Source of the DNA: Thiomargarita sp.
GTDB taxonomy: Bacteria; Pseudomonadota; Gammaproteobacteria; Beggiatoales; Beggiatoaceae
DNA: 5,756 nt
Direction: 5' to 3'
Assembly (NCBI GenBank): GCA_030618965.1
Contig: JAUXCJ010000099.1
Location: 1-5,756 of the forward strand
The notes under the pieces are model-generated. The model did no database searches. It was given only the letters and a program-made list of their open reading frames with translations, and was not told the origin of the DNA. Both the position numbers and the translations under genes were made by a program. This document shows positions 1-5,756 of the stretch, piece by piece. Positions within the stretch are counted from its first letter, which is position 1, and each line of letters starts with the position of its first letter.

Positions 1-2856
1 ATCATTTGCTTGTTTTGGTGAGTTAAAATGCTTTGTATAATAATACTCATTTACTTTTTTTTCTAGCCACACAGCGCGTTCTAAAAACGTCCAATCTTTA
101 TCTGTGATTAACTTTTTAAACATATTATATATATTAAGCAAATAATCCCTTCCGCCGCCGTAAATAGATAATACACAATGCCCCATTTCAGGCTGTACAA
201 TATCTAATAGTTGTAGTTGCCAGGTTTGATGAGCCTTTTGCCAATCTTGCAAATTATTAGCTGTTATTGGTGTATTCATGCCAATAAAGGCTAAAGAACT
301 ATCAATTTCTATGTTTTCAATCTGTTGCAATAGCGTTTTGCCATTTTCCAACAATTGATGTAGTTTACCATATTCATGCGTTGTGCTAGGATTTTGCCAA
401 AATTTATTCTTCATTCTACGGCTATCGCGTTCTAAAATGTCCCATTTACTCCATAATTGGTTCATGGTAGGGCCATCATTAATTTGTTGTGCGAAACGCC
501 GTGCAGTGGTTGTGGCACTTGTGATTTCTCTTAAAGTCCATTTACTATCAGCCAAAGTTTGATCGGCACGCGCTTTTTGAGTTTCAATCACTGTTTTAAA
601 GTTTAGTCCATTTTCGCCTTGACTAATAATCACTTTCATTTTTGCTGAAAACGGATAACGGTTTAAAGTTGTTGTTAGCGGAATCACGATTTCTTCATGT
701 AAGCAACGTTGTAACTGGCGAGCTCCATAGTGGCTATCTTTGCTAAGATTAGCGAGATAGTCGATAACTGAGTCTTCAATTTGCAGAAATACATCCCGTG
801 TCCGCAAACCATCCCGCTGTTTGATTTTATCAAGTTCGCGGCGGACAATGGGACGCAAAACGTTTAAGGAAAGTGCATTAAATGGTATCACTTGATCCAA
901 GCGATTGAATAGCTCTGGACGAAAAAAGTGTTGTACGGCTTGCAGATAGTGCTGATGCAGTGCTTGAGAACTATTATCTTTTTCATGGAATCCGGGGCTA
1001 CGCTGCTGGCTAACACCTGCACCAATATTAGAAGTCATAATAATCACGCTGCTACAAAAATCGGCAACTTGTCCGCGTGCATCGGTTAAACGCCCTTCAC
1101 CCATCAATTGCAATAATAAATCATAAAAGGCAAAATGGGCTTTTTCTAACTCATCAAATAAAACCACAGAAAACGGTTGTTGCCTTACTTTGTCGGTTAA
1201 TAAGCCTTGCCCTGCCGAAGAGGCATCGCCTGTTAAACGTAATACTGCAATTTCATCGGAAAATTCGCTCATATCAAAGCGAATCAGGCGTTGACTGTCG
1301 CCAAACATGAACTCAGCAAGGGCTTTAGCTAATTCAGTTTTGCCAACACCAGTTGGGCCAACAAATAATAGAGATGCAAGCGGCTTGCCCGGACGAGTTA
1401 GGCGAGTTTTGACAGAGGCTAACAAATCAACAATAATATCAATGGCTTCATCTTGTCCAAACAGGCGTGATTTAAAAAATTGTTGCGTTTCATTAAGTTT
1501 AAAGCTAGAACGGCTATCTACTAAAAAACGCGGCATCCCTGATTCTTCGCTAAATCTTGTTATTACGGCTTGAGAATCCAACGCAGTTTTTTTTATATTA
1601 TCTTGATTTAAAAGTGATTCTAAAAAATGCACGGTTTTACCAGGAAAACCAGAATACAAACTATAACGGTGTTGCAACCTCAAGGTTTCCTCAATGGCCT
1701 CTTTTGGAATAGCTTGTTTAGGATGAGAAACATGCAGACGGCGGCTGACTATATTTGACTGTTGTGCAAGGGGGGGCGCATCTAAGCGTAACACTTGAAA
1801 TAGATTACTATAACCAGGTGCTCGTGTTTCAATCGTTGCAAGTTCTTCATCGCTGCATTCCGTGATGAGGCGTACACTGCCCATAGCTAAATGTTCGCGC
1901 ATAAATTCAGCCATACTAATAGAATTACCCACATACGCGCCCACTTCAAAGAGCTGTGCAAGATTACGCACATAGAGAATATCGCCGCGTTTCCTCAGTT
2001 CTTCTAAAACTTTCCCCAACGATTCTTCCCAGCCAGCTTCAATCGTGAGCTTTTGCAACATACGCGCCGCTGTGGTTTCCCAAAATTTTACCGCAGCTAA
2101 ACCTCGCTTTGCAGACACACGAACTAATTCTTCTACTAATGCAGTTTTGCCAACTCCAGCACGTCCAACCAATAAGAGATTGCGATTATATTTTCCCGTC
2201 AAAGCGCGTAGCATTTGTTCAAGTTCACTTTCACGCCCAAAACAACGACATTGTGGCTGACGTTTTAATGCTTGTGCTATCTCTGGCAACCATTGTTGCT
2301 CGCGTTCATCATCCAAATTATCCAGTTCTGACAAACTATGAAAACGTGCATCTGTCAGTTCTTGTTTGACAGTTATTTCTTGATACCACTGAGTGCTGAT
2401 TAAACGTCGCACAGAGCTAAAACGTTTTTTACGAGTAAACTCCAGTTCAATAGCGCGTTGCAATACAAATATTAGTTCTTCTGGGGTGTCAGCATAAGCT
2501 TCAATGCCCAAAACTGGCAAAAATCCCAAACAATCTTGATTAGGCAATTGTGTATAAAAATAGTCAAACTCCAGTGTTAAGTCTGGATATAATGGACGTT
2601 TACGGAATGCTTGAAGGGAAAAGCTCAACTTTTCAGTTTGTAAGGAAAAGCTAGGGGGAGTATGACGAAGTATTTCTAAATAATCCCCTTGCTTGATGTA
2701 ACTTGCTTCTAACCGCTTAATTAGGGATTTTGTCAGTGTGGAAGAGGATTGATTAACAGTGATAGCTTCTGGAATAAGTAGCGGAGAAACTAGATTAATT
2801 TTTTCACTAAATGCTAACTGAACTGTAAAAATTGGAAGGGAAAATAGGTTAGCCAT
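1..2856 (-). CDS. ClpA/B-like AAA+ ATPase with C-terminal release-factor-like (PCRF) region, 3' end beyond window
   Basis: Seen: an uninterrupted frame of 952 codons from ATG 2856, with no stop before the left edge. Residues 1-195 are an unrecognised domain without Clp_N repeats. D1 (about 195-440) starts at FGRESEL and has Walker A GRAGVGKT (231-238), but its Walker B reads ILYVRNL (293-299, Asp-Glu replaced by Arg-Asn) and its arginine finger is lost (N351, L352). There is no room for a ClpB middle coiled coil. D2 (about 455-750) is intact: GQDEA (467-471), Walker A GPTGVGKT (500-507), Walker B VVLFDELEK (564-572), sensor 1 TSN (608-610), arginine finger R652 and sensor 2 GAR (711-713). Both pore loops lack the usual tyrosine. 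Residues about 797-930 resemble the PCRF domain of RF2 (FWQNP at 819-823; LSIYGGG at 896-902). Inferred role: an ATP-driven remodeller, possibly ribosome-associated; the true substrate is unknown. An in-frame TAA four codons upstream fixes the ATG, which has no clear Shine-Dalgarno. It lies 43 bases after the POR beta gene and may be co-transcribed with it. Confidence 0.88.
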   Translation of the reverse strand, partial: MANLFSLPIFTVQLAFSEKINLVSPLLIPEAITVNQSSSTLTKSLIKRLEASYIKQGDYLEILRHTPPSFSLQTEKLSFSLQAFRKRPLYPDLTLEFDYFYTQLPNQDCLGFLPVLGIEAYADTPEELIFVLQRAIELEFTRKKRFSSVRRLISTQWYQEITVKQELTDARFHSLSELDNLDDEREQQWLPEIAQALKRQPQCRCFGRESELEQMLRALTGKYNRNLLLVGRAGVGKTALVEELVRVSAKRGLAAVKFWETTAARMLQKLTIEAGWEESLGKVLEELRKRGDILYVRNLAQLFEVGAYVGNSISMAEFMREHLAMGSVRLITECSDEELATIETRAPGYSNLFQVLRLDAPPLAQQSNIVSRRLHVSHPKQAIPKEAIEETLRLQHRYSLYSGFPGKTVHFLESLLNQDNIKKTALDSQAVITRFSEESGMPRFLVDSRSSFKLNETQQFFKSRLFGQDEAIDIIVDLLASVKTRLTRPGKPLASLLFVGPTGVGKTELAKALAEFMFGDSQRLIRFDMSEFSDEIAVLRLTGDASSAGQGLLTDKVRQQPFSVVLFDELEKAHFAFYDLLLQLMGEGRLTDARGQVADFCSSVIIMTSNIGAGVSQQRSPGFHEKDNSSQALHQHYLQAVQHFFRPELFNRLDQVIPFNALSLNVLRPIVRRELDKIKQRDGLRTRDVFLQIEDSVIDYLANLSKDSHYGARQLQRCLHEEIVIPLTTTLNRYPFSAKMKVIISQGENGLNFKTVIETQKARADQTLADSKWTLREITSATTTARRFAQQINDGPTMNQLWSKWDILERDSRRMKNKFWQNPSTTHEYGKLHQLLENGKTLLQQIENIEIDSSLAFIGMNTPITANNLQDWQKAHQTWQLQLLDIVQPEMGHCVLSIYGGGRDYLLNIYNMFKKLITDKDWTFLERAVWLEKKVNEYYYTKHFNSPKQAND

Positions 2857-2899: not shown

Positions 2900-3886
2900 T
2901 TATGCCCAACGTATCCCCCCACGCCGCACCGTGTCCATCCCTTTACTATCGAAAGCATCTTTTCCTTCTCCGCGTAAATTATAAACTTCAATATTATGAT
3001 TGGCTATCGCTTGAATGTGTTCTAACTCTTCTTTAGCCCGTAAATCATCCAAAAATAAATGGCGAAAACGTTGTTGTATTTTCATATAGTCTGTCACAGG
3101 GGGTATGTGACGCAAAGGCATTACACTGGCTAATCCACCTCTTTCTAATTCAATGATTGGAAATAAGCCTGTTTGTACGGCAAGTCTTGCCACTGCAATG
3201 CTTTGATCGCCTTCATATCCCCACCCTAGCGGACAAGGGGAATGAATTTGTAGGAATGTTGGGCCATCAATTGCCATAGCTCTTCTAATTTTTTTTCTAA
3301 TATCAGATGGATATGCGACAGATGTAGTCGCAGCGTAAGGAATGTGATGGGCAGCAACAATGGAAACAATGTCTTTTTTCAAGTGACGTTTACCCATACG
3401 CTCTTTACCAGGCGGTGATGTTGTTGTCATCGCAGCATGGGGGGTAGAACTCGAACGTTGAATACCAGTATTCATATAGGCTTCATTGTCAAAACAAACA
3501 TATAAAACATTGTGTCCACGTTCTAGCATACCTGAGAGAGCTTGAAAGCCAATATCAAAAGTGCCTCCATCGCCCCCAAATGCCAAGACTTTAGTTGATT
3601 TACCTTGAGCTTTTAAGGCAGCTTCCATACCTGCCGCTATTGCGCCAGTGTTTTCAAATAAGGAATGTACCCAAGGAATTCGCCAAGCAGATTCTGGCCA
3701 AGGTGTGGTAAAAATTTCTAAACAGCCTGTTGCATTAGCGACCATAACATCAGGGCCAGCTGCTTCTATGACTAAACGAGCTGCTAAGGCTTCACCGCAG
3801 CCCAAGCAGGCGCGATGTCCTGATTCTAGCCCCCTAAAACGGGGTTGTTTGTTGCGAAGTTCAGAAATGGGAATAATTGTTGTCAT
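2900..3886 (-). CDS. porB: Pyruvate:ferredoxin oxidoreductase, beta subunit
   Basis: This is the TPP- and [4Fe-4S]-binding subunit of POR, a cytoplasmic enzyme that oxidatively decarboxylates pyruvate with CoA and passes electrons to ferredoxin. The 328-residue length is normal for the family. Cluster ligands are visible: C27 and C30 in GHRACLGCGE, C55 in NATGCLE and C218 in SPCPLGW. The TPP/Mg site is the GGDGGTFDIG stretch (104-113) followed by FDNEAYMNTG (132-141). The ACLGCG, NTGIQRS and CPLGWGYEG signatures favour a pyruvate enzyme over a 2-oxoglutarate enzyme, though substrate cannot be proved from the sequence. ATG 3886 is preceded by a modest AGGT ribosome site at 3895-3898, eight bases upstream. 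It follows the alpha gene by 21 bases, so the two are surely co-transcribed. The last residues (RRGGIRWA) end at a TAA, and the AAA+ gene begins 43 bases further on. Confidence 0.95.
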   Translation of the reverse strand: MTTIIPISELRNKQPRFRGLESGHRACLGCGEALAARLVIEAAGPDVMVANATGCLEIFTTPWPESAWRIPWVHSLFENTGAIAAGMEAALKAQGKSTKVLAFGGDGGTFDIGFQALSGMLERGHNVLYVCFDNEAYMNTGIQRSSSTPHAAMTTTSPPGKERMGKRHLKKDIVSIVAAHHIPYAATTSVAYPSDIRKKIRRAMAIDGPTFLQIHSPCPLGWGYEGDQSIAVARLAVQTGLFPIIELERGGLASVMPLRHIPPVTDYMKIQQRFRHLFLDDLRAKEELEHIQAIANHNIEVYNLRGEGKDAFDSKGMDTVRRGGIRWA

Positions 3887-3907: not shown

Positions 3908-5080
3908 TTATCTATCTTCTACAGGTAATTTTTTCATATCAACATCAATAATTCTAAAGCGTCTATCACCAGGATTATTCAAGACAGAAAGCAATTTAGG
4001 TAGAATCTCTAATGGAATGTCACGTCCACCTAAGCCAGCCGCAAAATTATGTACACGGGGAGGTTTGGCTAATTCGGATAAGGCTGCTAACACTTCTAAA
4101 CCGACAATACCGCCACTGCCAGGTGATAAAGCTCGTTCTAACACGATAACGTCATCTAATCCTTGACAGGCAGCTTTCAAAGCATCACTTGGGAAAGGTC
4201 GGAATGAGCGTAAGCCAATCAGTTTGACTGGTTGCCCTGATGGTATTTCTTTTAATGCTTCTCTTAAAGTGCCTAATACTGAACCAATCGTCAAAATAGC
4301 AATCTTGCTTTGTTTTAGACCTTCTACCGATAATAAACCACCAGATTGGCGACCAGTGATAACTGACCAATCTTTATCGGTAGACACAATTTCAGCCTGA
4401 GCATTCAATAGTGCTTGATGGTGCGAATGTCGGGCTTCTGGATAAAAATCTGGGGAAACTAGGGTTCCAAGGCTTATGGGATTACTCGGTTCTAAACTAC
4501 GAGAAAATTTATAGGGCGGTAAAAAGGCATCGATTTGCTTTTGTGTTGGAATATCAATACCTTCCAATGTATGAGTCAGCGTGAAGCCATCCATACAAAC
4601 CATCACAGGTAATTCGGTGCGTTCGGCAATCCGAAAAGCTTGAATAGTAGTATCAACAGCTTCTTGATTATCAGTGCAATAAAGTTGAATCCAGCCCGCA
4701 TCACGCACCGCCATTGAATCTTGTTGGTCATTCCAAATTGATAGGGGACTAGAAACGGCGCGGTTAGCACAAGTCATTACAATGGGAACACGCATTCCAG
4801 CAATATTAAATAAGACTTCTGCCATCAGCAAAATGCCTTGTGACGCGCTGGCTGTATAAGCACGAGAACCAGCCAAGGCTGCACCTAAAACAACTGAAGC
4901 AGCTGAAAATTCACTTTCAACACTGATAAACTCGCATTGCAATTGGCCATCAGCTACCAATTTAGAAATATTTTCTACAATATGCGTTTGCGGAGTAATC
5001 GGATAAGCCGCAATAACTTGGGGACGGCATAAGGCTACCGCTTGGGCGATTGCTTGTGAGCCTTCAAGTGCTTGGAGCAT
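3908..5080 (-). CDS. porA: Pyruvate:ferredoxin oxidoreductase, alpha subunit
   Basis: This catalytic subunit completes the TPP pocket of POR with the beta subunit and binds pyruvate. From ATG 5080 it has 390 residues, typical for the family. Visible motifs are YPITPQT (26-32, substrate loop), SVESEF (53-58, with E55 as the likely TPP-activating glutamate; the family usually has His where F58 stands), TASASQG (76-82), and NR (106-107) followed by SIWNDQQDSM and RDAGWIQ, the pyruvate-type signature with R107 as the likely carboxylate contact. The second domain follows, with GSVLGT and GLRSFRPFP. The start was chosen at ATG 5080 rather than the in-frame TTG at 5086, because a strong AAGGAGG site (5087-5093) sits six bases before the ATG and would abut the TTG. 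It overlaps the end of the gamma gene by 17 bases, which suggests translational coupling. A pyruvate substrate is well supported by homology but is not proven. Confidence 0.95.
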   Translation of the reverse strand: MLQALEGSQAIAQAVALCRPQVIAAYPITPQTHIVENISKLVADGQLQCEFISVESEFSAASVVLGAALAGSRAYTASASQGILLMAEVLFNIAGMRVPIVMTCANRAVSSPLSIWNDQQDSMAVRDAGWIQLYCTDNQEAVDTTIQAFRIAERTELPVMVCMDGFTLTHTLEGIDIPTQKQIDAFLPPYKFSRSLEPSNPISLGTLVSPDFYPEARHSHHQALLNAQAEIVSTDKDWSVITGRQSGGLLSVEGLKQSKIAILTIGSVLGTLREALKEIPSGQPVKLIGLRSFRPFPSDALKAACQGLDDVIVLERALSPGSGGIVGLEVLAALSELAKPPRVHNFAAGLGGRDIPLEILPKLLSVLNNPGDRRFRIIDVDMKKLPVEDR

Positions 5081-5645
5081 GAACAACCTCCTTTTCTTTC
5101 CACAAACCTGCGGGAACTTTTGTAGCAGCTTCTTTAATTAATTTTAAATTGTTTTCTAAAATCTTGCCTTTAAAACGTTTTTGGAGAACATTACTTAAAG
5201 ATTCTTGTGACAGCAGTTCTGTTAAGCTAAAAAATGCGGCAAGTAGGGCGGTATTAGGTACTGGGCGGCCTAAAAATTGTTTGGCTAAGGCCATTGCAGG
5301 TAACGCAATGGCAGTTTTTCCCAATTGTTGACTCAGTTCTGCGCTGCTTAAACTAGAATTGACTAATATTTTACCATCGGGTAATAAGCCGTCTGTCACC
5401 CCTGGTACGTGTAACAAGGCTTGATCTTGAATAATTAAAAATGCGGGATGAAGGACTTGACAACGCCGTTGAATGGGACTGTCGTCGATACGCACGAAGG
5501 CCATAACTGGTGCTCCCCGTCGTTCCGCCCCAAAATTAGGAAAAGCTTGACCATAACGCCCTTCTTCAAAAGCAGCCATTGCTAGTAAATAAGCAGCAAC
5601 TACATTGCCTTGCCCACCACGACCATGTATGCGTATTTCTATCAT
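5064..5645 (-). CDS. porG: Pyruvate:ferredoxin oxidoreductase, gamma subunit
   Basis: This is the gamma subunit of the 2-oxoacid:ferredoxin oxidoreductase family, the domain thought to hold or shield CoA and stabilise the complex. The 193-residue length is normal. It opens with the family signature IRIHGRGGQGNVVAAYLLA (4-22), followed by GQAFPNFGAERRGAPVMAFVRID (positions 32-54, key residues F35, G39, E41, R42, R43, G44, P46). The usual mid-domain pattern follows: a hydrophobic LIIQD segment, then the LPDGKILVNSS strand (108-118). ATG 5645 is the start: the family signature begins three codons in, and no strong Shine-Dalgarno is seen, so initiation may be weak or depend on an AT-rich leader. 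It is the first gene of the POR operon, directly downstream of a 5S rRNA gene and its terminator. No delta (ferredoxin-like) gene lies between it and alpha. Confidence 0.94.
   Translation of the reverse strand: MIEIRIHGRGGQGNVVAAYLLAMAAFEEGRYGQAFPNFGAERRGAPVMAFVRIDDSPIQRRCQVLHPAFLIIQDQALLHVPGVTDGLLPDGKILVNSSLSSAELSQQLGKTAIALPAMALAKQFLGRPVPNTALLAAFFSLTELLSQESLSNVLQKRFKGKILENNLKLIKEAATKVPAGLWKEKEVVHAPST
5087..5093 (-). promoter_or_regulatory. Strong ribosome binding site of the POR alpha gene
   Basis: The minus strand reads AAGGAGG, a near-perfect anti-16S match, then six bases (TTGTTC) and ATG at 5080. It lies inside the end of the gamma coding region and decides the alpha start: the in-frame TTG at 5086 would touch the site and is too close to be used. 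It is much stronger than the sites before gamma, beta or the AAA+ gene, so alpha may be the best initiated gene of the set. Confidence 0.88.
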
Positions 5646-5674: not shown

Positions 5675-5680
5675 GGCAAT

Positions 5681-5716
5681 AAAAAACCCCCGTAAGTATT
5701 ATAACCTACGGGGGTT
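5681..5716 (-). terminator. Rho-independent terminator of the rRNA operon
   Basis: On the minus strand, AACCCCCGTAGGT pairs with ACTTACGGGGGTT as a 13-bp stem (5704-5716 with 5685-5697, one G-U pair) around a six-base loop TATAAT (5698-5703). A run of six T follows (two of them within the stem). The GC-rich core and T-tract are classic for intrinsic termination. It stands about a dozen bases after the 5S rRNA end and insulates the POR operon from rRNA transcription. The plus strand lacks a comparable T-run, so it is read as one-directional. Confidence 0.92.
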
Positions 5717-5727
5717 CGGTATATCAA
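5698..5727 (-). promoter_or_regulatory. Sigma70-like promoter embedded in the rRNA terminator
   Basis: The minus strand shows TTGATA (5722-5727, five of six to TTGACA), an 18-base spacer and TATAAT (5698-5703, six of six). The -35 begins directly after the predicted 5S end and the -10 is the terminator loop. RNA started here, near 5691, would carry only the 3' arm of the hairpin and so could not terminate at it. This is the best candidate promoter for the POR genes, with a leader of about 45 bases. The sites are seen; their activity is inferred. Confidence 0.6.
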
Positions 5728-5756
5728 ATTCCTGGCAGTGTCCTACTTTCACATGG
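5728..5756 (-). rRNA. rrf: 5S ribosomal RNA, 3' end only
   Basis: The minus strand at the right edge reads CCATGTGAAAGTAGGACACT followed by GCCAGG, matching the conserved 3' portion of bacterial 5S rRNA (loop E to helix I; E. coli ends with GTAGGGAACTGCCAGGCAT). Only about 29 bases lie in the window. The 3' boundary near 5728 is set by analogy with the E. coli end. The terminator just downstream supports this being the last gene of an rRNA operon. Confidence 0.9.

Follow-up and report, generated by a model that had tools for sequence, protein, structure and literature searches.

In a 5,756-nucleotide contig from the gammaproteobacterium Thiomargarita sp. (GenBank assembly GCA_030618965.1, contig JAUXCJ010000099.1; our G000:C326), which was analysed in its entirety and is referred to here as the window, we found a gene, CP3, that encodes a Clp-type AAA+ ATPase fused to a C-terminal extension resembling part of a bacterial release factor (RF). 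The motor comprises a degenerate first AAA+ module (D1) and a second one (D2) that retains its ATPase motifs and has lost its main pore loop; the extension is predicted to fold like RF2 and lacks the catalytic GGQ domain. CP3 has two paralogues, CP1 and CP2. Our preferred reading, to which we assign a probability of about 40%, is that CP3 is a Clp ATPase carrying an RF2-derived, GGQ-less arm, and that, with CP1 and CP2, it likely makes up a mixed ring of three kinds of subunit, which would use the arm to dock on ribosomes, where ATP hydrolysis by D2 would remodel or clear stalled ones.

The Clp motor and its C-terminal extension

The CP3 frame runs on the complementary strand from an ATG at base 2856 to base 1, where the contig ends abruptly, and is free of stops over all 952 codons (Table 1). 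An initial annotation, made from the sequence alone, had described a frame continuing for at least 200 codons beyond D2, and both this and the motifs that it had placed were confirmed: NKFWQNP occupies residues 817–823 (bases 388–408), LHQLLENGKTLLQQI residues 832–846, and VLSIYGGGRD residues 895–904 (bases 145–174). Full-length relatives are about 1,085 residues long, and the window copy is incomplete; it holds RF domain 1 and only the first 60 or so residues of RF domain 2, and the remainder, past base 1, was read from orthologues. Residues 735–952 matched 26 proteins (E ≤ 1.1e-38, identity 43–84%), of which 25 are 1,019–1,142 amino acids (aa) long and the remaining one 842 aa, and the organisms named among them are Candidatus Parabeggiatoa and Candidatus Marithrix. 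This conservation across 26 proteins ruled out an artefact or a chance open reading frame. Three alignments were used: A1 (25 of the 26 extension homologues, the partial protein P0015 being left out), A3 (22 of the 26 and 11 loci) and A4 (33 of 35 hits and 7 loci); locus L152 was left out.

Pfam and NCBIfam placed the D1 and D2 modules up to residue ~755. Among the 25 of 53 Pfam families listed, AAA_2 matched with an E value of 3.6e-45, ClpB_D2-small with 1.4e-10 and AAA_16, over the D1 region, with 1e-11, while residues 1–178 were covered by none. The protein thus has the two AAA+ modules and the D2-small domain of Clp/Hsp100 proteins. ClpA was the best NCBIfam match (residues 179–729; among 25 of 69 families listed), but the equivalog cut-offs were missed by a wide margin for ClpA (319.8 of 993 bits), ClpB (293 of 1232) and ClpV (253 of 885). 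In D1, the Walker A motif GRAGVGKT is kept (2143–2166), whereas the acidic pair of Walker B is absent (ILYVRNL, 1960–1980), as is the pore tyrosine of the KYRG loop (2023–2052). In D2, Walker A (1336–1359), Walker B (FDELEKAH, within 1135–1167), the arginine finger (895–927) and sensor 2 (706–729) are all kept, and the GYVG pore loop is deleted (1189–1239).

The same pattern was seen when six proteins each of CP1, CP2 and CP3 were aligned with five ClpA proteins. All four D2 motifs were kept in 18 of 18 CP proteins, and in all 18 the GYVG loop was deleted and the acidic pair of D1 Walker B was broken; the D1 Walker B glutamate is lost, and CP2 retains the aspartate. The D1 pore tyrosine was found in CP1 only (KYLG or RYLG), being absent from the 12 aligned CP2 and CP3 proteins. 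In a larger set of 28 CP3 (including the 842-aa P0015) and 37 CP2 (including two partial proteins), D2 Walker A was present in 65/65 and the Walker B pattern in 64/65; a loose D1 pore-loop pattern also matched at some place in 2/37 CP2. D2 looks catalytically intact. The GYVG motif was found in none of the 65 CP2 and CP3 proteins, which argues that these are not ordinary threading unfoldases and makes the pulling of nascent chains through the pore less likely; the initial annotation had suggested ATP-dependent ribosome rescue or nascent-chain handling as the function.

At the place where ClpA-type proteins carry the ClpP-docking tripeptide IGF/IGL, the window protein has SPGFH (985–999). PGF occurs there in the 10 CP3 listed (of 28), LGF or VGF in the nine CP2 listed (of 37), and ISF, ITF, IGF or LGF in six CP1. 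By eye, IGF was seen in both outgroup CP3 (L033, 5573–8722, minus strand; L090, 2977–6204, plus strand). Set against the window-type PGF, this outgroup IGF hints that the window's family may have lost the ability to dock ClpP.

The extension was modelled with AlphaFold2 from separate alignments of a window-type CP3 orthologue and of CP2. The top 44 PDB rows returned by Foldseek for the CP3 orthologue, and the top 42 for CP2, were all chains of termination or rescue factors; PrfH chains were also among the matches (Foldseek/VIA), and the matches skip the GGQ domain of release factors. Both models contain a helical domain 1 and a codon-recognition superdomain 2/4, with domains 1, 2 and 4 in the order found in release factors, and no insertion the size of GGQ domain 3 between the strands of domain 2. 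In CP2, the alpha/beta domain 2/4 alone superposes over ~130 residues at 2.4–3.4 Å. The extension is thus predicted to comprise RF domain 1 and superdomain 2/4 and to lack domain 3. A viral structure library gave no match at E 0.001. The structural half of the check proposed in the initial annotation bore out its suggestion, in that the predicted fold of the CP3 orthologue matches RF2; the RF-like part, which it had placed at residues ~797–930, starts near residue 770.

The profile searches gave a different result. The initial annotation had named PCRF (PF03462) and the RF-1 GGQ domain (PF00472) as the families to look for, and no match to either was present over residues 753–952 of the window protein among the Pfam and NCBIfam matches listed, nor did Pfam detect either in the extensions of seven CP2 and 12 CP3. 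PCRF was rejected as a Pfam-detectable domain; the GGQ domain is absent. The case for a Clp ATPase joined to an RF-like region is carried by the predicted fold and not by a PCRF hit, and it is stronger in CP2. When compared with PDB by sequence, CP2 yielded no row, and CP3 yielded 12 rows with a best E of 0.17, of which 11 were of a somatostatin receptor and one of a nitroreductase; none was accepted as an RF match. The evidence for a likeness to release factors comes from the predicted fold and from profile–profile comparison.

For the latter, we used hhalign with sets of 32 of 35 CP2 and 23 of 26 CP3 sequences, the motif not being found in the others; reversed-sequence controls scored at noise. 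CP2 matched RF1/RF2 profiles from which domain 3 had been removed with an E value of 3.3e-6 (probability 88; reversed controls 0.2–0.4), but when domain 3 was retained the best match covered just 18 columns (E 1.2e-4). In a slice test made after the fold match had been seen, the RF2-type segment at the end of CP2 matched the C-terminus of RF2 (E 3e-7, probability 93). An IRxY-like word is present there in 37/37 CP2 and an exact DLRTG in 29/37, and the IRxY...DLRTG arrangement extends to the outgroup CP2 of genomes G138 and G036; the G138 protein is 21–26% identical to the others. RF1 ends differently (IRTYNFP...TDHRIN), and CP2 scored lower against it (E 0.008; 0.03 with a broader set). The RF2-type ending and these lower RF1 scores point to RF2 as the source of the extension. 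In the CP2 of the window genome (L043, 2098–3135), a Pro/Gly-rich insert, PPPSPLPAGGGLRGRAQQ, precedes the IRxY segment and is missing from the other six CP2 extensions aligned.

CP3 matched CP2 with an E value of 1.3e-4 (reversed, ~0.4), and its direct match to release factors was weak (E 0.006 and 0.007; 0.03–0.08 with broader RF sets). In the broader set, the RF1 and RF2 labels were given by a motif rule, seven of 43 RF1-labelled sequences were skipped, the RF1 of one genome was present twice, and one CP3 row (G782) was a single residue. In the same post hoc slice test, the collinear slice of CP3 was the best one for RF2 domain 1 (E 0.006), domain 2 (0.009) and the C-terminus (0.018). The domain 1 slice is the alignment of WQNP with VWND, as in the likening of NKFWQNP to an RF2 block in the initial annotation. 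For CP2, this test gave no match to RF2 domain 1 (best E 0.2), nor did the C-terminus of CP3 match that of CP2 (E 0.24).

What the extension has lost was then read from the last 300 residues of the 28 CP3 and 37 CP2. The letters GGQ occurred in 1/28 CP3 and 1/37 CP2, both at unrelated places, and the codon-reading motif SPF in 0/28 and 0/37. The letters P[AVE]T occurred in 17/28 CP3 and 3/37 CP2, but in the aligned codon-reading loop none was present among the 12 CP2 and 11 CP3 rows listed; five CP3 did not fit the search pattern used for this listing. In the rows listed, ExGxH of domain 2 is kept, and the hairpin that follows it is ~6–8 residues shorter than that of RF2. By this anatomy, the module should be incapable of RF-style peptidyl-tRNA hydrolysis and of stop-codon reading through the known loop. 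Past the left end of the window, 21 of 28 CP3 (e.g. P0001, P0003 and P0006) have an acidic C-terminal tail whose last residues are [IVL]PF; the tail is absent from P0016, from four Marithrix-like proteins (P0023–P0026) and from the G036 and G138 proteins. The ...DDIPF form of this tail closely resembles DDDIPF, the C-terminal tip of single-stranded-DNA-binding protein (SSB).

Paralogues and distribution

CP1 is ~755 aa long and has no extension, the arm being found on CP2 and CP3 and not on the aligned CP1. In a tree of the D2 module (27 sequences), CP1, CP2 and CP3 together stood apart from ClpA, ClpB and ClpC with an ultrafast bootstrap (UFBoot) value of 100, and each formed a group of its own (UFBoot 99–100). 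CP1 may have lost the arm, but the pairing of CP1 with CP3 received a value of only 72. The one Lentisphaerae hit (L002) is an ordinary ClpC-type protein. In G036 and G138, which belong to families other than that of the window genome, the three genes are direct neighbours, arranged as CP3-CP2-CP1. Genomes of the window's family mostly have them at scattered positions, yet they co-occur. Among the 42 genomes of this family, CP1 was found in 14, CP2 in 13 and CP3 in 15, with all three in 13 and none in 27. The exceptions are G782, an assembly of 850 contigs with CP1 and CP3, and G001, a member of the same genus as the window genome, where the search gave neither CP1 nor CP2 but only a CP3 remnant with stops, in a ~0.9-kb gap beside the same por genes (L123, ~6107–7012; G001:C482).

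Beyond this family set, even samples of 369 genomes of the class and 398 of the phylum were searched with the CP2 extension, and the CP genes were rare there. Matches were obtained in 8/369 at E ≤ 1, three of them convincing (G000, G036 and G138), and in 4/398 at E ≤ 0.1, the window's own genome being the sole convincing one; in the order of G138, the match in one of two genomes was G138 itself. No relative was found in viral contigs, and 0 of 2283 plasmid records had a match covering 80% of CP2. An ordinary RF scored above the PF03462 cut-off in 12 of 13 CP-bearing genomes, and none did in G002. ArfB-sized PF00472 matches (open frames of 147–193 aa) were found in four of the family's 42 genomes, all of them without CP genes, which is too few to interpret. 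Extra, divergent PF00472 matches in frames of 281–358 aa were observed in three large genomes from the same genus (G019:C363:37697–38029, ~1.9 kb before RF2; G782:C17:27357–27686; G783:C517:802–1128 and G783:C655:1346–1669).

Possible function and competing explanations

Common descent, joint presence and absence, and the operon suggest that CP1, CP2 and CP3 would assemble as one heteromeric ring. The RF-like arms of CP2 and CP3 would target this ring to the ribosome, where binding would probably be codon-independent given the shortened reading loop. ATP hydrolysis by D2 would then lever or pull at the ribosome without threading through a GYVG pore, since for a ring that lacks this loop levering or eviction is more probable than threading, and peptide release, if required, would be supplied by RF1, RF2 or another factor. 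Docking of the arm on ribosomes, if it occurs, would represent a new bacterial route for applying ATP-driven force at the A site. The system also shows a release factor without catalysis or codon-reading motif put to another use, and a Clp family that retains its D2 ATPase while the main D2 pore loop is lost. A more specific version, which we hold to be doubtful, likens the system to Pelota/ABCE1 or Vms1/Cdc48 as a single bacterial machine: a three-paralogue Clp ring would insert its RF2-derived arms, blind to stop codons and incapable of cutting peptidyl-tRNA, into the A site of ribosomes that have stalled, and ATP hydrolysis would evict or split these without threading. In most window-type proteins the ...DDIPF tail would also tie the ring to SSB-binding partners, which could connect the clearing of ribosomes with replication or repair.

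The strongest rival, a serious possibility though short of even odds, is that the RF-derived module acts off the ribosome as a protein–protein scaffold for ring assembly or substrate recruitment. The loss of the GGQ domain and the SPF motif, a divergence from release factors so extreme that Pfam gives no hit, the restriction of the arm to CP2 and CP3 and the SSB-like tail of most CP3 are all in keeping with a scaffold. However, the IRxY...DLRTG ending is conserved in CP2 as far as the outgroups, and the domain order common to both models exceeds what a bare scaffold would need. We consider it unlikely that the ring is a ClpA-like threading unfoldase recruited to the ribosome by the RF arm for nascent-chain extraction, possibly with ClpP: ClpA is the best NCBIfam match, the D2 motifs are intact, CP1 has an aromatic D1 pore loop and the two outgroup CP3 have IGF at the docking place, but the D2 pore loop is missing throughout, the D1 pore tyrosine is absent from aligned CP2 and CP3, and the CP3 tripeptides listed read PGF. 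That the resemblance to release factors is a modelling coincidence of a generic helical bundle and an alpha/beta domain is very improbable, because models of two paralogous families, each built from its own alignment, gave only termination and rescue factors in the top Foldseek rows, domain 2/4 matches by itself, the RF2-type segment of CP2 scores at E 3e-7, and reversed-sequence controls score at noise.

CP2 and CP3 are predicted to share with RF2 (prfB) the fold and order of domains 1 and 2/4; ExGxH is common to them in the rows listed, and CP2 also has the IRxY...DLRTG ending. CP2 and CP3 differ from RF2 in lacking domain 3 and SPF, in their shorter loop and in being fused behind a Clp ATPase. 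With Hsp100 proteins of the ClpA/ClpB type they share the D1-D2-D2-small order and the intact D2 motifs, but they fall below the equivalog cut-offs, lie separately in the tree, have lost the D1 Walker B glutamate and the D2 GYVG loop, and carry a new C-terminal extension. PADLOC matches to DolB and PDC-M37B span the D2 ATPase core only and support no assignment to defence. The likeness to Vms1/ANKZF1-Cdc48 of eukaryotic ribosome-associated quality control and to Pelota/Dom34-ABCE1 is one of working principle, an RF-superfamily protein and an ATPase acting on ribosomes; these systems differ in having an unrelated archaeo-eukaryotic RF fold, separate polypeptides and other ATPases. A review of release factor evolution describes aeRF-1 together with ABCE1 as well as a link between Vms1 and Cdc48, and states that PrfH and ArfB retain the catalytic glutamine (PMC6514570). 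PrfH/RFH and ArfB are, like the CP proteins, RF-derived and outside normal termination, but the domain bearing this glutamine is absent from CP2 and CP3. In the main text of the same review, “Clp” and “PCRF” do not occur (PMC6514570), and in the open-access literature searched, outside which lie most subscription papers and preprints, none of the matches listed described an AAA+ unfoldase fused to an RF module. CP3 combines a predicted RF2-like fold with a Clp motor, both parts of known kinds, yet lacks defining features of both functional classes.

Gene neighbourhood

Table 1. Features of the window (residue numbers refer to CP3)
Feature	Position	Strand	Basis
CP3 gene, encoding a Clp-type AAA+ ATPase fused to an RF-like C-terminal extension	1..2856	-	952 codons, truncated at base 1
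N-terminal region, residues 1–200 (1–178 without a listed Pfam family)	2257..2856	-	Pfam
D1 AAA module, residues ~201–430	1567..2256	-	Pfam, motif alignment
D2 AAA module and D2-small, residues ~431–755	592..1566	-	Pfam, motif alignment
RF domain-1-like helical part of extension, residues ~763–892	181..570	-	model, profile alignment
Start of RF domain-2-like part (codon-recognition superdomain), residues ~893–952	1..180	-	model; remainder past contig end
PorB-like 2-oxoacid:ferredoxin oxidoreductase beta subunit, outside system	2900..3886	-	Pfam, NCBIfam
PorA-like alpha subunit, outside system	3908..5086	-	Pfam, NCBIfam
PorC-like gamma subunit, outside system	5064..5645	-	Pfam, NCBIfam

The porB-like gene is separated from the CP3 start by 43 bases (2857–2899) on the same strand, and the two may be co-transcribed in the window genome. 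At the other end of the window, bases 5678–5756 include a terminator-like inverted repeat, CCCCCGTA...TACGGGGG, after which the last letters of the contig look, by eye, like the terminal part of a 5S rRNA gene; the window had no Rfam match at gathering thresholds. In the other loci listed, the genes flanking CP3 differ. In two loci (L041, 6412–6864, in G030; L128, 2190–2642, in G013), a similar gene of ~151 aa immediately precedes CP3 in the same orientation.
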